Source of the DNA: Microbotryomycetes sp. JL201
Taxonomy: Eukaryota > Basidiomycota > Microbotryomycetes
Length of the DNA: 64,000 nt
Direction: 5' to 3'
Assembly: GCA_033819885.1 (NCBI GenBank)
Contig: JAQYUZ010000020.1
Location: forward strand, 217,095-281,094
In this document: one piece after another, positions 48,786-64,000 of the stretch
How positions within the stretch are numbered: the first letter of the stretch is position 1
How the letters are laid out: each line of letters begins with the position of its first letter
Position numbers and translations under genes: made by a program
The notes under the pieces: model-generated
Databases searched by the model: none
Told to the model about the DNA's origin: nothing
The model's input: the letters and a program-made list of their open reading frames with translations, nothing else

Positions 48786-50721
48786 TCAAGCGCTTGGTGC
48801 ACTTAGGACTCTGACTGTCCTGTCGATTCCCGCAACAAGAATTTCCTTTCCCAAATTGCCAAATCCGACTCCTGTGACTTCTGCACCATTCTCTTCATTC
48901 TTGCACAATTCTGCCCAAGTCTTGTTTTGATAGACTCGAACGTCCGTTCCAGCGACGCACAAGAACTGAGCAGATTCGTCAAACTTGACAACGTTAACGA
49001 CTTGTCCTGAAGGCAAGTCAATGTTGGCAGAATTTGTCAATTTCGACAAATGCCAAAGTTTGACTTGGTTCGAATCTTTGGCGCTTGAAGCGAGCGTGTA
49101 ACCGTTCTCGGAGAACGACAGGCTCGTCACGTCTGATCCTCCGACTTGAGAGTGACCGTCGAAAGAAGCGATGCATTTGCCAGACATGGTGTCAAAAATT
49201 CGGATGCGCGAATCGCTCGAACCGACACCAAAGATGGCGCCGTCAGGGTGGAACGCGATGGCAGTATTTGACGTGCCTTCAACAACATCAGAAGGTAGCG
49301 AGCCAGTCAAAGCCACGACGGGTTTGCCGCTTGCAAGGTCAATGATGGACCATGTGCCGTCGGAAGATGCGGCGGCGAGCAGACTGTGCGAGGGATGCAG
49401 CGCGATGGACGTGACTTCACCGCTAAGAGACACGCTTGATGTGCCATAGACCGTTTTTGAGCCGCTGGGAGTCCACAACCTGACCGTCTTGTCGACCGAC
49501 GATGAAACCAGGAACGAAGGAATGCCGTCTTCGATCGTGGGTGACGCGATCACAGCCGTGACCTTGTCTTTGTGGCCTTTGAGGGTAGCCACAATTTTGT
49601 CTGTCGATCGGTTATAAAGGACCACGTTTTTGTCGAGTCTGATTGCGCGAAGTCACTCGTCAGTGGCTGGATGGTTCCCGCGTAATAATATGTACTGACC
49701 CGCCGGTAACAAAGAGCTGCCCGCCGTCGGCCACGTCGAGGGCGGCGATGCCAGGGGGCTTTGTGCCGTGCAAGCTCGGAATAGCGTGCGTTTGGGTGAA
49801 CGTTTGGAGGTCGGCCGGAGTGGAATATCCGTCGGCCGGTTTCCGCTTTTTGCGCACTGCCGACAAGCTATTGTGATGGCCGAATCAGCTCCTGATGCGC
49901 TTCGCGGTGGTAGGCAGCCCGAGGCTTCATTCACCTCTGGTTCGTCTCGACGACGCGCTTCCTCGCGTCTTCTGGCAATCCTGCCTCTGCCTCTGGTGCA
50001 GCGTCCATCTCGACGTCTGCGCCGTTTGTGGCCTCTTGAGGAGCCGCTCCTGCGCCAATGCTTGACCTGACTGACGCCAAGGCACTACAAACAGGAGAGC
50101 CACAAGGTTAAATAGGAACAGATCGTGCTGCAATACGGCGTGGGGGCCTGCTGCTCACTCTCGTGCGTCGTTGCGTTCGCGCGTGAGCCTGGCGAGCACG
50201 CGCATTGCCGCGTCCTCCTTGTACAGGGCGTGGCTCAGTTCTTGACGGAGCTCGTCGTTCTGTCGCCTGAGCTCGAGGCATTCGAGCATGGTCGCATCCC
50301 ATTCGGACTGGAGAGTGTGCAAGAGCGATGGAATGGACGTGAACGTCGGCGGACGCGGTGCCGCTGCGGGCGTGGACGGAGCTGCAAGCGGTGTTGAATG
50401 CGTCAGTCAGTCTCACGAGAGTTCTCGAGTGCGCGCTTTAGCCTCGCGAGGTGTGTATCGACCATTGCGAGGCGCGTGGCACGCACAGCGCGATCTCAAC
50501 GAGCGAGTGGACAACACGAGCCAGCTGCGCCGCACAGGTAGCTCACCAGTCTGAAGTTCGATGAGGTCATCCTCTGTGAGTTGATCGCCGGTGATGGGGT
50601 CCTTGCCGCTGTTGTCTTGAAGGTACTTTGTGATGAGCGAGTGCTCGTACACGCTCCCGCTCTTTGTCGACACGACAGGCTTGAGCGGCGGCTGGCCAGA
50701 GATGGCACAGAACAAAGACAT
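48786..50721 (-). CDS. PRP19: pre-mRNA processing factor 19, U-box E3 ligase
   Basis: Core of the NineTeen complex that activates the spliceosome; also a ubiquitin ligase. Exons (minus) 50721-50547, 50381-50159, 50084-49935, 49867-49700, 49638-48786; 522 residues. U-box at 1-58 ([38 protein letters not shown]), then [20 protein letters not shown] and a coiled-coil ([22 protein letters not shown]) for tetramerisation, a linker with RKKRKP, and a C-terminal WD40 propeller ([21 protein letters not shown]..) typical of Prp19. Length matches the family. Divergent from NOP58. Confidence 0.95.
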
Positions 50722-51082: not shown

Positions 51083-53263
51083 ATGCTCGTGCTCGCCGAC
51101 TCGGCCGTCGGGTTTGCGCTGTTCAAGATCAAGGATGGCAAGCTCGACGACAAGCAGCTGCACAAGCAGTTTGACACGCCAGAAAAAGCGACAAATTTGT
51201 AAGTTATCATCATTGCTCCCACACTCGTCCATTCTACTTTTGGGTCGACCGTCCGCGCTTTTTTTCGGCGCAAACGGCCACGCTCGCTTGGTCCATACTG
51301 TCGACCGACAGGGTCGAGCAGCGCACAAGTTAGGACTAGGGATACTTTGTGTATATCCTGCGGCCTGAGCTAGGCTGCTTCCGCGCTGCTCTTTGCACGA
51401 GCGCGTCATCACATTCAACGACGATGATTTCCACACGACATCCTATCGCGAGAGACGAGATTGCTCACAAACGTACTTGACCCACAGGCTCAAGCTGCAA
51501 GCAATTCACCGATTCACGTCGACTGCGGAGGCTGTTGAGGACATGACCGCACTCGGTGAAGGCAAAATCTCAAAGTCACTCAAAAAGTTCTTGACAGACG
51601 AGGTCGCGGGCAACAAAAAACTCAAGAACGAGAAACTCATTGTCGCAGAGCCAAAGCTTGGCGGTGCGATCTCGAAAAAGCTCGAGCTCGCAGTCGTATC
51701 GGACTCGTCCGTCAACGACTTGTATCGCGGCATCAGGCAGCAATTGTCGGCCTTGCTTGGCGACATTGATCAAAAAGACATCAACACGATGGAGCTTGGT
51801 CTGTCTCACTCTGTCTCGCGGTGAGTCTCGTCGGCAATAGTCCTGAGGTCCTGTCTGTTTGAGCAAGGACGAATTCGCTGACAACATACGACGGACCTCC
51901 CAGTTTCAAACTCAAATTCTCGCCCGACAAGGTGGACACGATGGTTGTGCAGGCCATCGCTTTGCTCGATGACCTCGACAAGGAAATCAACATTTACGGC
52001 ATGCGCGTCAAGGAGTGGTACGGCTGGCACTTCCCAGAGATGGCCAAGATCATCTCAGAAAACATCACGTATGCACGCATCGTCAAGGCCATGGGTACGT
52101 CGCCCGTTCTTGGCCCATTCAGTCTTTGTGCCACCCAACTTGCTGACGCGCACGAGCTTTTCGACTTTAGGCTTCCGCACGAACTACAACACGACCGACT
52201 TCTCCGCCATCCTGCCCGAAGAGCTTGAAGAGGCAATCAAGTCGGCCGCGGCCGTGTCGATGGGCACCGAAATCTCCGACACCGACTTGTCACACATAAT
52301 GCTCCTCGCCGACCAAGTCATCTCCATCACGCAATATCGAACTGAGCTGTTTGACTACTTGCGCAACCGCATGGCAGCGATCGCACCAAACTTGACTGCA
52401 CTCGTTGGCGAACTTGTCGGCGCGCGCTTGATTGCGCATGCCGGCAGTCTCCTGTCGCTCGCAAAGCACCCGGCGTCTACGGTCCAAATTCTAGGAGCCG
52501 AGAAGGCACTCTTCCGTGCGCTCAAGACCAAGCACGACACTCCCAAGTACGGCTTGATTTTTCACGCATCGCTTGTCGGTCAGGCACCACAAAAGCTCAA
52601 GGGCAAGGTCAGTCCTCATCTTGTATCCGCTGACGTATCGACATGATGCTAACGAGAGAGTTTCACCATTCGTAGATGGCCCGCATGGTTGCGACCAAGG
52701 CAGCCTTGTCGATCCGACTGGACGCGCTCGCCGATGCAGACTCGAAATCGTCGCTCGACGCAGCCACGATCGGTATCGATAACCGAGCCAAACTTGAAAC
52801 TCGACTTCGCAACCTTGAGCAAGGTATCGGTCACACTTCGCTGAGGTCGCTCGCTAAAACGACACCAGGTCACCAACAAGCTAGTCAAACTAAAAAGTTT
52901 GAAATGAGGTCGAATGGTGCGGCCAGCTACAACTCTGCTGCAGATGCTTTGTTGCCCACCGCTGCTGCGGCCACGGCGACGAACGGAGACGCTGCCGCAA
53001 GCGATGACGAGGAAGACGACGAAGAGGACGAGGCTACGCGGTTGAAGAAGGAGGCCAAGAAGCTCAAAGCACTTGCAAAGTCAAATGGAGACGTTGACGA
53101 GGCAGAAGCCAAGCGACTCAAAAAGGAGGCAAAGCGATTGAAAAAGGAGGCAAAGGCAGCAGCAGCAGGCGGCAGCTCACCCGAGAAGAAGGAAAAGAAA
53201 AAGGACAAGAAGCGGAAAGCGGAAGACGACGAAAGCGGCAAGAGCAAGAAAGTCAAGGCTTGA
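51083..53263 (+). CDS. NOP58: nucleolar protein Nop58 (box C/D snoRNP core)
   Basis: Core protein of box C/D snoRNPs that guide 2'-O-methylation of rRNA. Exons 51083-51198, 51488-51820, 51904-52094, 52171-52607, 52676-53263; 554 residues. NOP5NT domain from [16 protein letters not shown], coiled-coil, then the Nop domain with [15 protein letters not shown] and [36 protein letters not shown]. The C-terminus is the expected KKE/D-rich tail ([17 protein letters not shown]...KKKDKKRK). Intron 1 (51199-51487, 289 nt) is four times the usual length in this window. Exon 2 could in principle start elsewhere, but the phase and the family sequence ([17 protein letters not shown]) fit. Confidence 0.95.
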
Positions 53264-61510: not shown

Positions 61511-63288
61511 ATGTAAGCAGTCGCGCCTCGGCCGCGCCGTCGCGTGTCCGGCTGCGGTTATACTGACTTGTCATTGCTCGCCATCGTGCAGGGCTGCCAA
61601 GATTTGTGAGTGCTCCGTGTGCCGGATCGTCGATGCCCCACCGGCGGACGATGCGGCGCGCACGGCCAGCATTGCTCGGTATGCGAGAGCCGCAACTGAC
61701 ATCGTTTCCTCGTCCTTCTCTACCGGGGACCTGTCGTGCAGACTGGTGAGTTCGCTGCTGCCGTCGTACGCGGCCCGCGTGCGCTTCGCGTCCCTCCACG
61801 AGTCACGCGCGGGGCGCACGCGTACGCCAGGCCACGGCCAATCCCCGCCCTGACAGCAATCGAAACCGTGAATGCTAACACTGCTCGGCTGCCTGCCTTG
61901 CTCGCAGCGGAAACTTGTCATGGTTAGTCCTCATCCGCCAGGCGCAAATCGCGTTTTCAGGCTGACGAGTGAATCCCGCCCGCGCGCAACCGCACCTGCA
62001 CTGCTTCCGAAACACCACAGGGGCACTAACAACGATACGTTGAGGGATGCCTTTCAACAATTCGGCCAGGTCGTCGACTGCATCGTCATGACGTGAGTAT
62101 CGCGCATAGTGGCAGGCCGCGACACGTGCATTAGCGCCAGGATGGTGGACGTCAACAGCTGACCAGGCAGAACATGTTCTGCAGTGAGCCTGGAACCGGC
62201 CGCTCGCGTGGCTTTGGCTTCGTCACCTTTGCCGACCAAGCCGCTGCCGACGCTGCGATTGCCGCCATGAACGACCAGGAGCTTGTGCGTTATTGATTTC
62301 CTATTCATTCTGATCGCTTCAGTCAATCGGCTGCTTCTGGCTTGCTGGGTTACCTGGCTCAACCGTTCTGCGGCCTCTTGGTTTCGGCTTGTTGCGCCTG
62401 CTCAAGTTGGCTGTGCTAGCTCGGTTCGATTTCGACGCTGTTCACACTCGTCTCAGAGCTGTCGGTCTGCTGCTTAATGTGATCGGACGTCGGGTCTCCC
62501 CGGAGCAGCGACTAACGGTCGCACCAACCCCGTTCTTGTATCTTCTCTGAACTGTTTCCTGACTCCTGTATTGGTTCTTTCGTCCCTTTCGCATGCTTCC
62601 TGTGCTCTGGCTTCAATGTCTGCGCCTCTGCTCTGTCGTTCTGGCTGCGTTGCTCAACACGCTCTCCGTCCCGATGCTTTACACTCTGATTTCACAGGGT
62701 AAGCACGGCCACCGCAATCTACATCTGAAGCTTTATTCATGGTCTTCACAAACTCTACAGACGGACGCAGGCTCCGCGTCAATGTTGCTAACCAGCGCAC
62801 CGGCGGTGGTGGAGGATACGGCGGAGGAGGATATGGCGGAGGATGTGCGTCTCAGGAGGCGCCTCCGCACCATTCTTTAGCTGATTTACATTCATGTGGG
62901 CAGATGGCGGTGGATACGGAGGAGGAGGAGGATACGGTGGAGGATACCAGCAGGGTGGCTGTGAGTAACGCGGCACACTCTTTCAGTTCTCGACGGCTCA
63001 TCCTCCTTGTCGCAGATGGAGGCCAGGCTGGCTTCGGTGGCCAGTCCGGCTACGGACAGCAAGGCTACGGACAGCAGAGCTACGGCCAGCAGTCCTACGG
63101 CCAGCAGGGCGGCTTTGGCGGCGAGCAAGGCTCGTACGGCGGCGCAGGTTACGGCGGTGCCCAGGGCGGTTTCCAACAGGGTGGTTACAACCAGCAGCAG
63201 GGTGGCGGTGGTCAACAGGGTGGCTATGTGCGTCTTGCAGCTCGGTTTGCATCGAAAAGACGACTGATTCACTTTTGGCCTGCAGTAA
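61511..63288 (+). CDS. glycine-rich RRM RNA-binding protein with micro-exons
   Basis: Small RNA-binding protein of the GRP/CIRBP type: one RRM plus a Gly/Tyr/Gln tail. 187 residues from exons 61511-61512 (AT), 61592-61605, 61742-61745, 61908-61922, 62021-62092, 62185-62284, 62698, 62761-62844, 62904-62960, 63016-63227 and 63286-63288 (TAA). RNP2 is IYCGNL (5-10), RNP1 is RGFGFVTF (44-51), and ELDGRRLRVNVA closes the RRM; the tail has GYGGG and GYGQQ/SYGQQ repeats. The parts from exon 5 on are secure apart from the single-base exon; the first four exons are inferred because only this chain gives ATG, KIY, GNLSW in one frame with good splice sites at every border. If the last intron is retained the protein gains about 39 residues. 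Confidence 0.8.
61742..61745 (+). other. candidate 4-nt micro-exon
   Basis: ACTG, directly preceded by CGTGCAG and followed by GTGAGT. It completes Tyr and begins Cys in the RNP2 motif (KI-Y-C-GNLSW) and is required to bring exon 2 (ending in phase 1) into frame with exon 4 (beginning with the third base of a codon). Confidence 0.6.
62285..62697 (+). other. 413-nt intron inside the RRM
   Basis: Longest intron in the window, between GTGCGT and TTTCACAG. If retained, an in-frame TGA follows within four codons, so unspliced RNA would encode a truncated RRM. It is pyrimidine-rich with many short CT runs. An independent gene inside is not supported. Confidence 0.6.
62698..62698 (+). other. candidate 1-nt micro-exon
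   Basis: A single G between TTTCACAG and GTAAGC. It supplies the first base of the Asp codon in EL-D-GRRL. Joining exon 6 (ends CTT, phase 0) directly to the exon at 62761 (starts AC GGA) would shift the frame. Confidence 0.55.
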
Positions 63289-64000
63289 ATCGCTCTGCTG
63301 AACCGCTTTCCTTTTCTCGACCCGCCTCTTTCTACCGCCTTTGACCGTCTCGCATTGTCTACTGTCGTCTCATTCGCTTCCGTTCTCGTCTCAAAACTCA
63401 TCGTCTCGGTCCCTTTTCCATCTCGACAATGAATCTGTTTCTCAATTACGGAACCATGTGACGACCTCGCGCTTTGTTTCGGTGTCTCTTGCCCCCCTTC
63501 CCGCACAAACTTGTCTTCACTCTTGTCTTCCAGGTATAGCTCGTTTTTCTCACTTCCCCTCTTCTTACCGCCTCTCTGCCTCAGACCAAAAAAGTTCTTG
63601 TATCTGTTCAAGTACGTGTGTGTCTCTCCTCAGTGCCCCTCATTCCGTTCTGTGCACTGCCGTGCCCAACTTTTTCTTTTTCGCTTTCCTATCAAAGTTT
63701 CTCGTGTGTCAGCAATGGGGAAAGAGGAATGCTTTGGAATTGAAATGCCTAGGAATTGATGCACATGCTGGTATGATCTCTCGCGTTTTGTGCTCTTGCG
63801 AAGGGACGACCATTGCCCTTGCATGCATTGATTTGACACGTTTGCGCATTGGGCCGAGTGTCGCCAACGTGGATAGCAGACGCCCTGATCTTTCAATGTG
63901 ATTTCGGACAAGCGAGCTGTCTCAATGATGATGGAAATGTGGGTTGGTCGGCGTCGTATTGACAATCAACAAAGGACAACAAATGAATAAAATAAAGGGG
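63289..64000. other. 3' region of the RRM gene to window end
   Basis: About 710 bases, very pyrimidine-rich to about 63680. AATAAA occurs twice at 63986-63996 and could serve cleavage/polyadenylation. No coding sequence is supported on either strand. Confidence 0.4.

Follow-up and report, generated by a model that had tools for sequence, protein, structure and literature searches.

A single G at position 62698 of the window (the whole stretch of DNA analysed, 64,000 nucleotides) very probably forms an exon of its own, flanked by two ordinary GT-AG introns at 62285-62697 and 62699-62760 of a gene for an RRM protein. Within positions 62690-62704 (TTTCACAGGGTAAGC) this lone base can be read directly between an acceptor and a donor, and the letters are as an earlier note on this DNA had given them, namely TTTCACAG/G/GTAAGC with exactly one G. 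At the level of the sequence the base is thus bounded by the AG of one GT-AG intron and the GT of the next. When the end of exon 6 (GAG CTT) is followed by this G and by the beginning of exon 8 (AC GGA CGC), the codon GAC (Asp) results, which restores the conserved E-L-D-G-R near the end of the RRM, whereas joining exons 6 and 8 with the G omitted shifts the frame. The base is needed, then, both for the frame and for a conserved motif, and from this we infer that the spliceosome uses it as an exon.

The RRM gene and its micro-exons

The gene lies on the plus strand at the window's end (61511-63288), where reading frames and splice borders outline eleven exons running from a split start codon to a TAA (Table 1). 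The product is an RRM protein of 187 aa with a Gly/Gln/Tyr-rich tail; a Gly-rich C-terminal region is present in the translation. Residues 5-75 match Pfam RRM_1 over the entire model (positions 1-70 of 70; 80.2 bits against a cut-off of 20.7), and with the one-base exon included the protein reads through to the stop codon without other damage. The start codon is interrupted by a 79-nt intron (61513-61591), and exon 1, if left unspliced, gives an ATG followed directly by TAA. Past the last acceptor we observed a pyrimidine-rich stretch of 246 nt (63286-63531) that contains no AG, the longest such run on both strands, which ends in CTTCCAG/GTATAG.

Table 1. Features of the RRM gene and of the interval around position 62698, in window coordinates; percentiles refer to the 91 training introns.
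Feature	Position	Strand	Description
Exon 1, coding part	61511-61512	+	AT of the intron-split start codon; AT/gtaagc...cag/GGCTGCC
Exon 2	61592-61605	+	14 nt
Exon 3	61742-61745	+	probable 4-nt micro-exon ACTG; completes IYCGNLSW near the RRM start
Exon 4	61908-61922	+	15 nt; donor GTTAGT
Exon 5	62021-62092	+	72 nt
Exon 6	62185-62284	+	100 nt; ends GAG CTT in phase 0; GAGCTTGTGCGT at 62279
Intron 6	62285-62697	+	413 nt; donor GTGCGT (59th percentile), acceptor TTTCACAG (96th percentile)
Rival donor GTTATT	62289-62294	+	would give one canonical intron to 62760, ELVHGRR
AG-free tract before acceptor 62697	62509-62695	+	187 nt; second longest on both strands
ACTAAC, candidate distant branch point	62511-62516	+	A at 62515, 182 nt from the end of intron 6
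Candidate near branch points	62678-62690	+	TTTAC (A 62681, 16 nt from the end) and CTGAT (A 62689, 8 nt from the end)
Exon 7	62698	+	predicted single-nucleotide exon G; first base of the Asp codon of ELDGRR
Intron 7	62699-62760	+	62 nt; donor GTAAGC (46th percentile), acceptor CTCTACAG (91st percentile)
Exon 8	62761-62844	+	84 nt; starts AC GGA CGC AGG; CTACAGACGGACG at 62755
Exon 9	62904-62960	+	57 nt, Gly-rich
Exon 10	63016-63227	+	212 nt, Gly/Gln/Tyr-rich
Stop codon TAA	63286-63288	+	first codon of exon 11

The earlier note had exon 6 ending in CTT in phase 0 and the next exon beginning AC GGA CGC AGG, which is borne out at 62284 and 62761, respectively. Its claim that one extra base is required to read Glu-Leu-Asp-Gly-Arg-Arg also stands, as the phase arithmetic holds. 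Both introns that border the G are long enough to be spliced (the shortest training intron has 44 nt). The mRNA junction predicted by the one-base exon is GAGCTT-G-ACGGACGC, and the junctions that would contradict it are GAGCTTGTGCACGG and GAGCTTACGG.

A second micro-exon probably occurs in the same gene, where, on homology, the four bases ACTG of exon 3 are required for IYCGNLSW. Splice scores alone favour a 76-nt exon over ACTG (-8.35 vs -9.79, or 1.4 nats). In the 86 protein relatives described below (best 80 of 315 prokaryotic, plus 6 viral), the segment encoded with exon 3 is equal in length in every case, and on the profile made from them the 76-nt version falls 11 bits behind. Some doubt over this micro-exon comes from the unusual Cys of IYCGNLSW, the residue of one relative at this position, where 80 of these 86 have V, 3 have I and 2 have A. 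The lengths of both micro-exons equal one modulo three.

Splice-site strength, protein relatives and chance

Splice sites were scored with matrices from a simple gene finder trained on the 64-kb window itself, with the maximum intron length set at 200 nt, of which 33 models were kept; an earlier run that allowed introns of up to 650 nt fused neighbouring genes and was discarded. The matrices come from 91 predicted introns in 12 models with high coding scores, all away from the RRM gene, while the 21 other models (score under 50) were dropped, including both models at the RRM locus itself. That locus was miscalled by the gene finder as a three-exon fragment (62782-63267) and a minus-strand model (61571-62308). 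The seeds of the gene finder included the RRM gene's own sites at 62285, 62699 and 62760, but not the acceptor at 62697, and the final matrices were drawn from the 12 other genes despite these own-site seeds. The training introns (median 65 nt, range 44-164) are predictions, and the models of Nop58 and Prp19 among them are imperfect in their N-terminal parts, so that the set is good rather than clean. The Nop58 gene (51543-53263, plus strand) has a model in which residues 2-486 of 497 can be aligned to solved Nop58 chains, although some 60 N-terminal residues are missing from it, and the model of the Prp19 splicing-factor gene (48786-50721, minus strand) has Pfam Prp19 and WD40 matches and appears imperfect near its N-terminus. 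Scans for tRNA genes and Rfam families gave no matches.

By matrix score, the acceptor at 62697 falls in the top 0.34% of plus-strand AGs and the donor at 62699 in the top 3.9% of plus-strand GTs (see Table 1 for their standing among the training introns). We enumerated 458 frame-keeping, stop-free solutions with one to three GT-AG introns, and the one-base exon came out on top (-5.15), followed by a single intron that uses the donor at 62289 (-9.25, 4.1 nats behind), with the third-best solution 6.3 nats below the one-base exon. In this ranking the one-base model was charged 7 nats for its second intron, a cost that we chose ourselves and that would have to rise to about 11 nats for a tie with 62289; the scores do not further penalise an exon for being extremely short. 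The length of intron 6, 413 nt compared with a training maximum of 164 nt (under the finder limit of 200 nt), counts against the one-base model.

How often would such a site arise by chance? The two strands of the window together contain 420 AG-N-GT sites, and by summed score the one at 62698 ranks first. When the interior of the intron was shuffled with its dinucleotides preserved, a G exon scoring equally well was obtained in none of 5,000 shuffles in a first run, and an exon of either G or A that came to within 2 nats in 15 of the same 5,000. A longer run gave a G exon as good in 31 of 161,396 shuffles and an exon of any base as good in 141, whereas a frame-keeping, stop-free rescue by two introns, with the exon of any length, was as good in 81 of 32,279. 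A loose rescue by luck is thus expected about once in 400, and exactly such a G exon about once in 5,000.

The length expected of the protein at this point was taken from relatives found by RRM scans, the best 80 of 315 prokaryotic loci together with 6 viral ones. In all 86 the stretch translates as one intron-free frame. The relatives were retrieved with a query containing ELDGRR (the full query in the confirming comparison), which introduces a mild bias; the junction peptide DQELDGRR, which served as one search pattern, occurs in none of the 86. The residue encoded by the codon that the one-base exon completes is D in 74 relatives and E in 8, with R, N, Q and A once each, and the motif continues with GR in 85 of the 86 (again the best 80 of 315 prokaryotic plus 6 viral). 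An 18-residue segment around it is equal in length in 83, one shorter in three (L078, L085 and L086) and longer in none. A count of loop length by letter pattern matched only 40 of the 86, with spacings from 3 to 8 and a loose anchor, and the alignment count was used instead.

On a profile built from these 86 relatives (best 80 of 315 prokaryotic, 6 viral), the product scores 124.3 bits with G in the single-base position, compared with 122.5 for A, 121.7 for C and 120.3 for T. Products of other splicing patterns score lower: 115.9 for the donor at 62289, 109.0 for a 34-nt insertion, 101.9 for skipping and 101.8 for retention. Pfam RRM_1 ranks the products alike. The G product (102 aa) reaches 82.3 bits, the 62289 product (103 aa) 76.3 and the product of the 34-nt insertion (113 aa) 74.3, and the full product has 80.2 bits with inclusion (187 aa) against 73.8 with skipping. 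Site strength, the chance controls and the 86 intron-free relatives all speak for the 1-nt exon that the earlier note had put forward, and make it probable as a reading of the genomic sequence.

Alternative readings of the interval

One may also consider explanations in which the G is not an exon. Two GT donors lie ahead of the in-frame stop that follows exon 6, GTGCGT at 62285 and GTTATT at 62289, and the latter offers the sole canonical single-intron rival that adds one residue. An intron from 62289 to 62760 would have GT-AG borders, is in frame and stop-free, and ranks second of the 458 solutions, giving ELVHGRR. Thus, the earlier note was wrong to hold that direct splicing needs non-canonical borders. 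Nevertheless, this donor stands at the 2nd percentile of the 91 training introns, its T at +5 has a frequency of 0.04 in a matrix of 123 introns, and the protein that results fits poorly: the alignment column of its extra residue is empty in all 86 relatives (best 80 of 315 prokaryotic plus 6 viral), none of which has a His here, and it is 8.4 bits worse on the profile of these relatives and 6.0 bits worse on Pfam RRM_1. The strong AG/G/GT site would, moreover, become a mere coincidence. We therefore consider a single intron from 62289 improbable.

Slightly less probable again is that the assembly is missing a base, or that the gene was broken by the loss of one, in which case a single 476-nt intron (62285-62760) would suffice. 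One absent base beside a splice site would account for the frame, but the protein made with the one-base exon is otherwise undamaged up to its stop codon, and it would have to be by chance that a G site of a quality seen in 31 of 161,396 shuffles lies in this very intron.

It is very improbable that a single intron with non-canonical borders yields the same mRNA, for although both possible pairs (GT...CA at 62285-62759 and TG...AG at 62286-62760) read exactly as ELDGRR, such borders are very rare and the strong AG/G/GT would once more be coincidental. A longer exon within 62285-62760 has just as little in its favour, since of the 456 further frame-keeping, stop-free solutions beyond the two best the leading one is 6.3 nats under the one-base exon, and longer exons add residues where none of the 86 relatives (best 80 of 315 prokaryotic, 6 viral) has any.

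Order of splicing and comparison with known systems

If the G at 62698 is an exon, only a single base separates its acceptor from its donor, and joint binding of the two is unlikely, which suggests that the two introns are removed in turn. A recursive splice site, or ratchet point, has the form AG/GT and amounts to an exon of zero length. The site in the RRM gene resembles it in its adjoining acceptor and donor, in the stepwise splicing that these imply, and in that a usable donor would remain if intron 6 were out first; it differs in that AG/G/GT departs from the strict definition and in that the base in between stays in the mRNA. Of the recursive splicing that the earlier note had offered as a mechanism, the two steps are therefore likely, while the sequence has no strict AG/GT. 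The order of events is also less favourable to it: with a median of 65 nt, the 62 nt of intron 7 are typical and the 413 nt of intron 6 are not, and one would therefore expect intron 7 to be removed first, in which case no donor is regenerated. Under such a scheme intron 7 would more often be excised first, so that the long intron 6 is left with TTTCACAG/GACGG as its acceptor, although the opposite order could also work, with removal of intron 6 leaving CTTG/GTAAGC as the donor. Successive removal has been argued for APC11, with a citation of potato invertase, where of the two introns next to a 9-nt exon the second is excised ahead of the first (PMC4674806).

The long AG-free tract ahead of the acceptor at 62697, together with the far ACTAAC, would permit a distant branch point, an idea that follows AG exclusion zones (PMC1431707). 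The tract itself is weak evidence, as AG was absent in 145 of 20,000 base shuffles and the longest run of this kind lies in the 3' part of the same gene. The near motifs in Table 1 may also serve as branch points; intron 7 has no YTRAY motif, its best candidate being CTGAA, with the A at 62728, 32 nt from the end. When the long intron was folded as RNA, the result did not stand out from that of shuffles (z 0.12 and 0.00), and a hairpin that would bring the distant branch point nearer was accordingly set aside as unsupported.

Retention of the interval ends the protein after ELVRY. Skipping of the G (62284 joined to 62761) leaves an open frame of 191 aa, which does not shorten the protein but puts an acidic and then an Ala/Ser/Arg/Val-rich tail in place of the last part of the RRM and its entire tail. 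Dual coding of this open skip frame was considered and rejected: the frame is open in all 5,000 of 5,000 synonymous shuffles, so that codon composition alone explains its openness, and there is so far no sign of selection. That the one-base exon acts as a regulated frame switch, with a distant branch point easing the crowding and possibly with autoregulation of splicing, is an unlikely, speculative extension of the one-base reading.

One-base exons of nuclear genes are known from plant APC11 and VPS55 (PMC4674806, PMC8831610), the latter reported in 2022 (PMC8831610), and from Fusarium CYP621A (PMC12940212). A search of open-licence papers for a micro-exon in a fungal glycine-rich RNA-binding protein gene found none; PMC3990503 has microexons solely as an aligner setting, and PMC8208691 merely cites the Arabidopsis case.

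Some of the systems that come to mind are similar in outline only. In placozoan mitochondrial cox1 one base is kept between two introns (PMC5436844), and in fungal mitochondrial rnl an A is kept between two group II introns (PMC12308204); these are mitochondrial genes, whereas the borders in the RRM gene are spliceosomal GT-AG. In [D1,2] stwintrons, too, one apparent long intron consists of two that are removed in consecutive reactions, the inner intron splitting the outer donor between its bases 1 and 2 (PMC12403724). In the RRM gene, by contrast, the donors GTGCGT at 62285 and GTAAGC at 62699 are both uninterrupted.

The nuclear cases are more alike. APC11 of Arabidopsis and other plants also has a frame-critical exon of one base, in an interval of 422 nt and 333 nt from the upstream exon (PMC4674806, PMC8831610), and there, too, successive removal of two introns has been proposed (PMC4674806); it differs in being a plant gene, in that the base is an A, and in that the proof came from cDNA, constructs and GFP (PMC4674806, PMC8831610). 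VPS55 likewise combines a single-base exon with a good donor, and forms with and without the exon exist in some plants, but it is a plant protein-sorting gene in which the exon is broadly conserved and backed by RNA evidence (PMC8831610). Fusarium CYP621A is fungal, as the RRM gene probably is by the window's gene content and intron size, and shares with it a G between AG and GT (AGGGT) that keeps the frame inside a conserved motif, and an interval longer than usual (139 nt, compared with a median of 56 nt in F. graminearum). It belongs to another gene family, the upstream intron of the RRM gene is much longer, and 20 orthologues and 18 RNA reads accompany the CYP621A exon (PMC12940212), whereas the exon in the RRM gene is predicted from one sequence.

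Judging from its sequence, the exon at 62698 is in all likelihood a new member of this known, very small class, of which other cases may exist in print. If so, it would widen the set by the gene of an RNA-binding protein that also carries a probable 4-nt micro-exon, and the locus would provide a compact natural substrate for the question of intron order where binding at the acceptor and at the donor is mutually exclusive.
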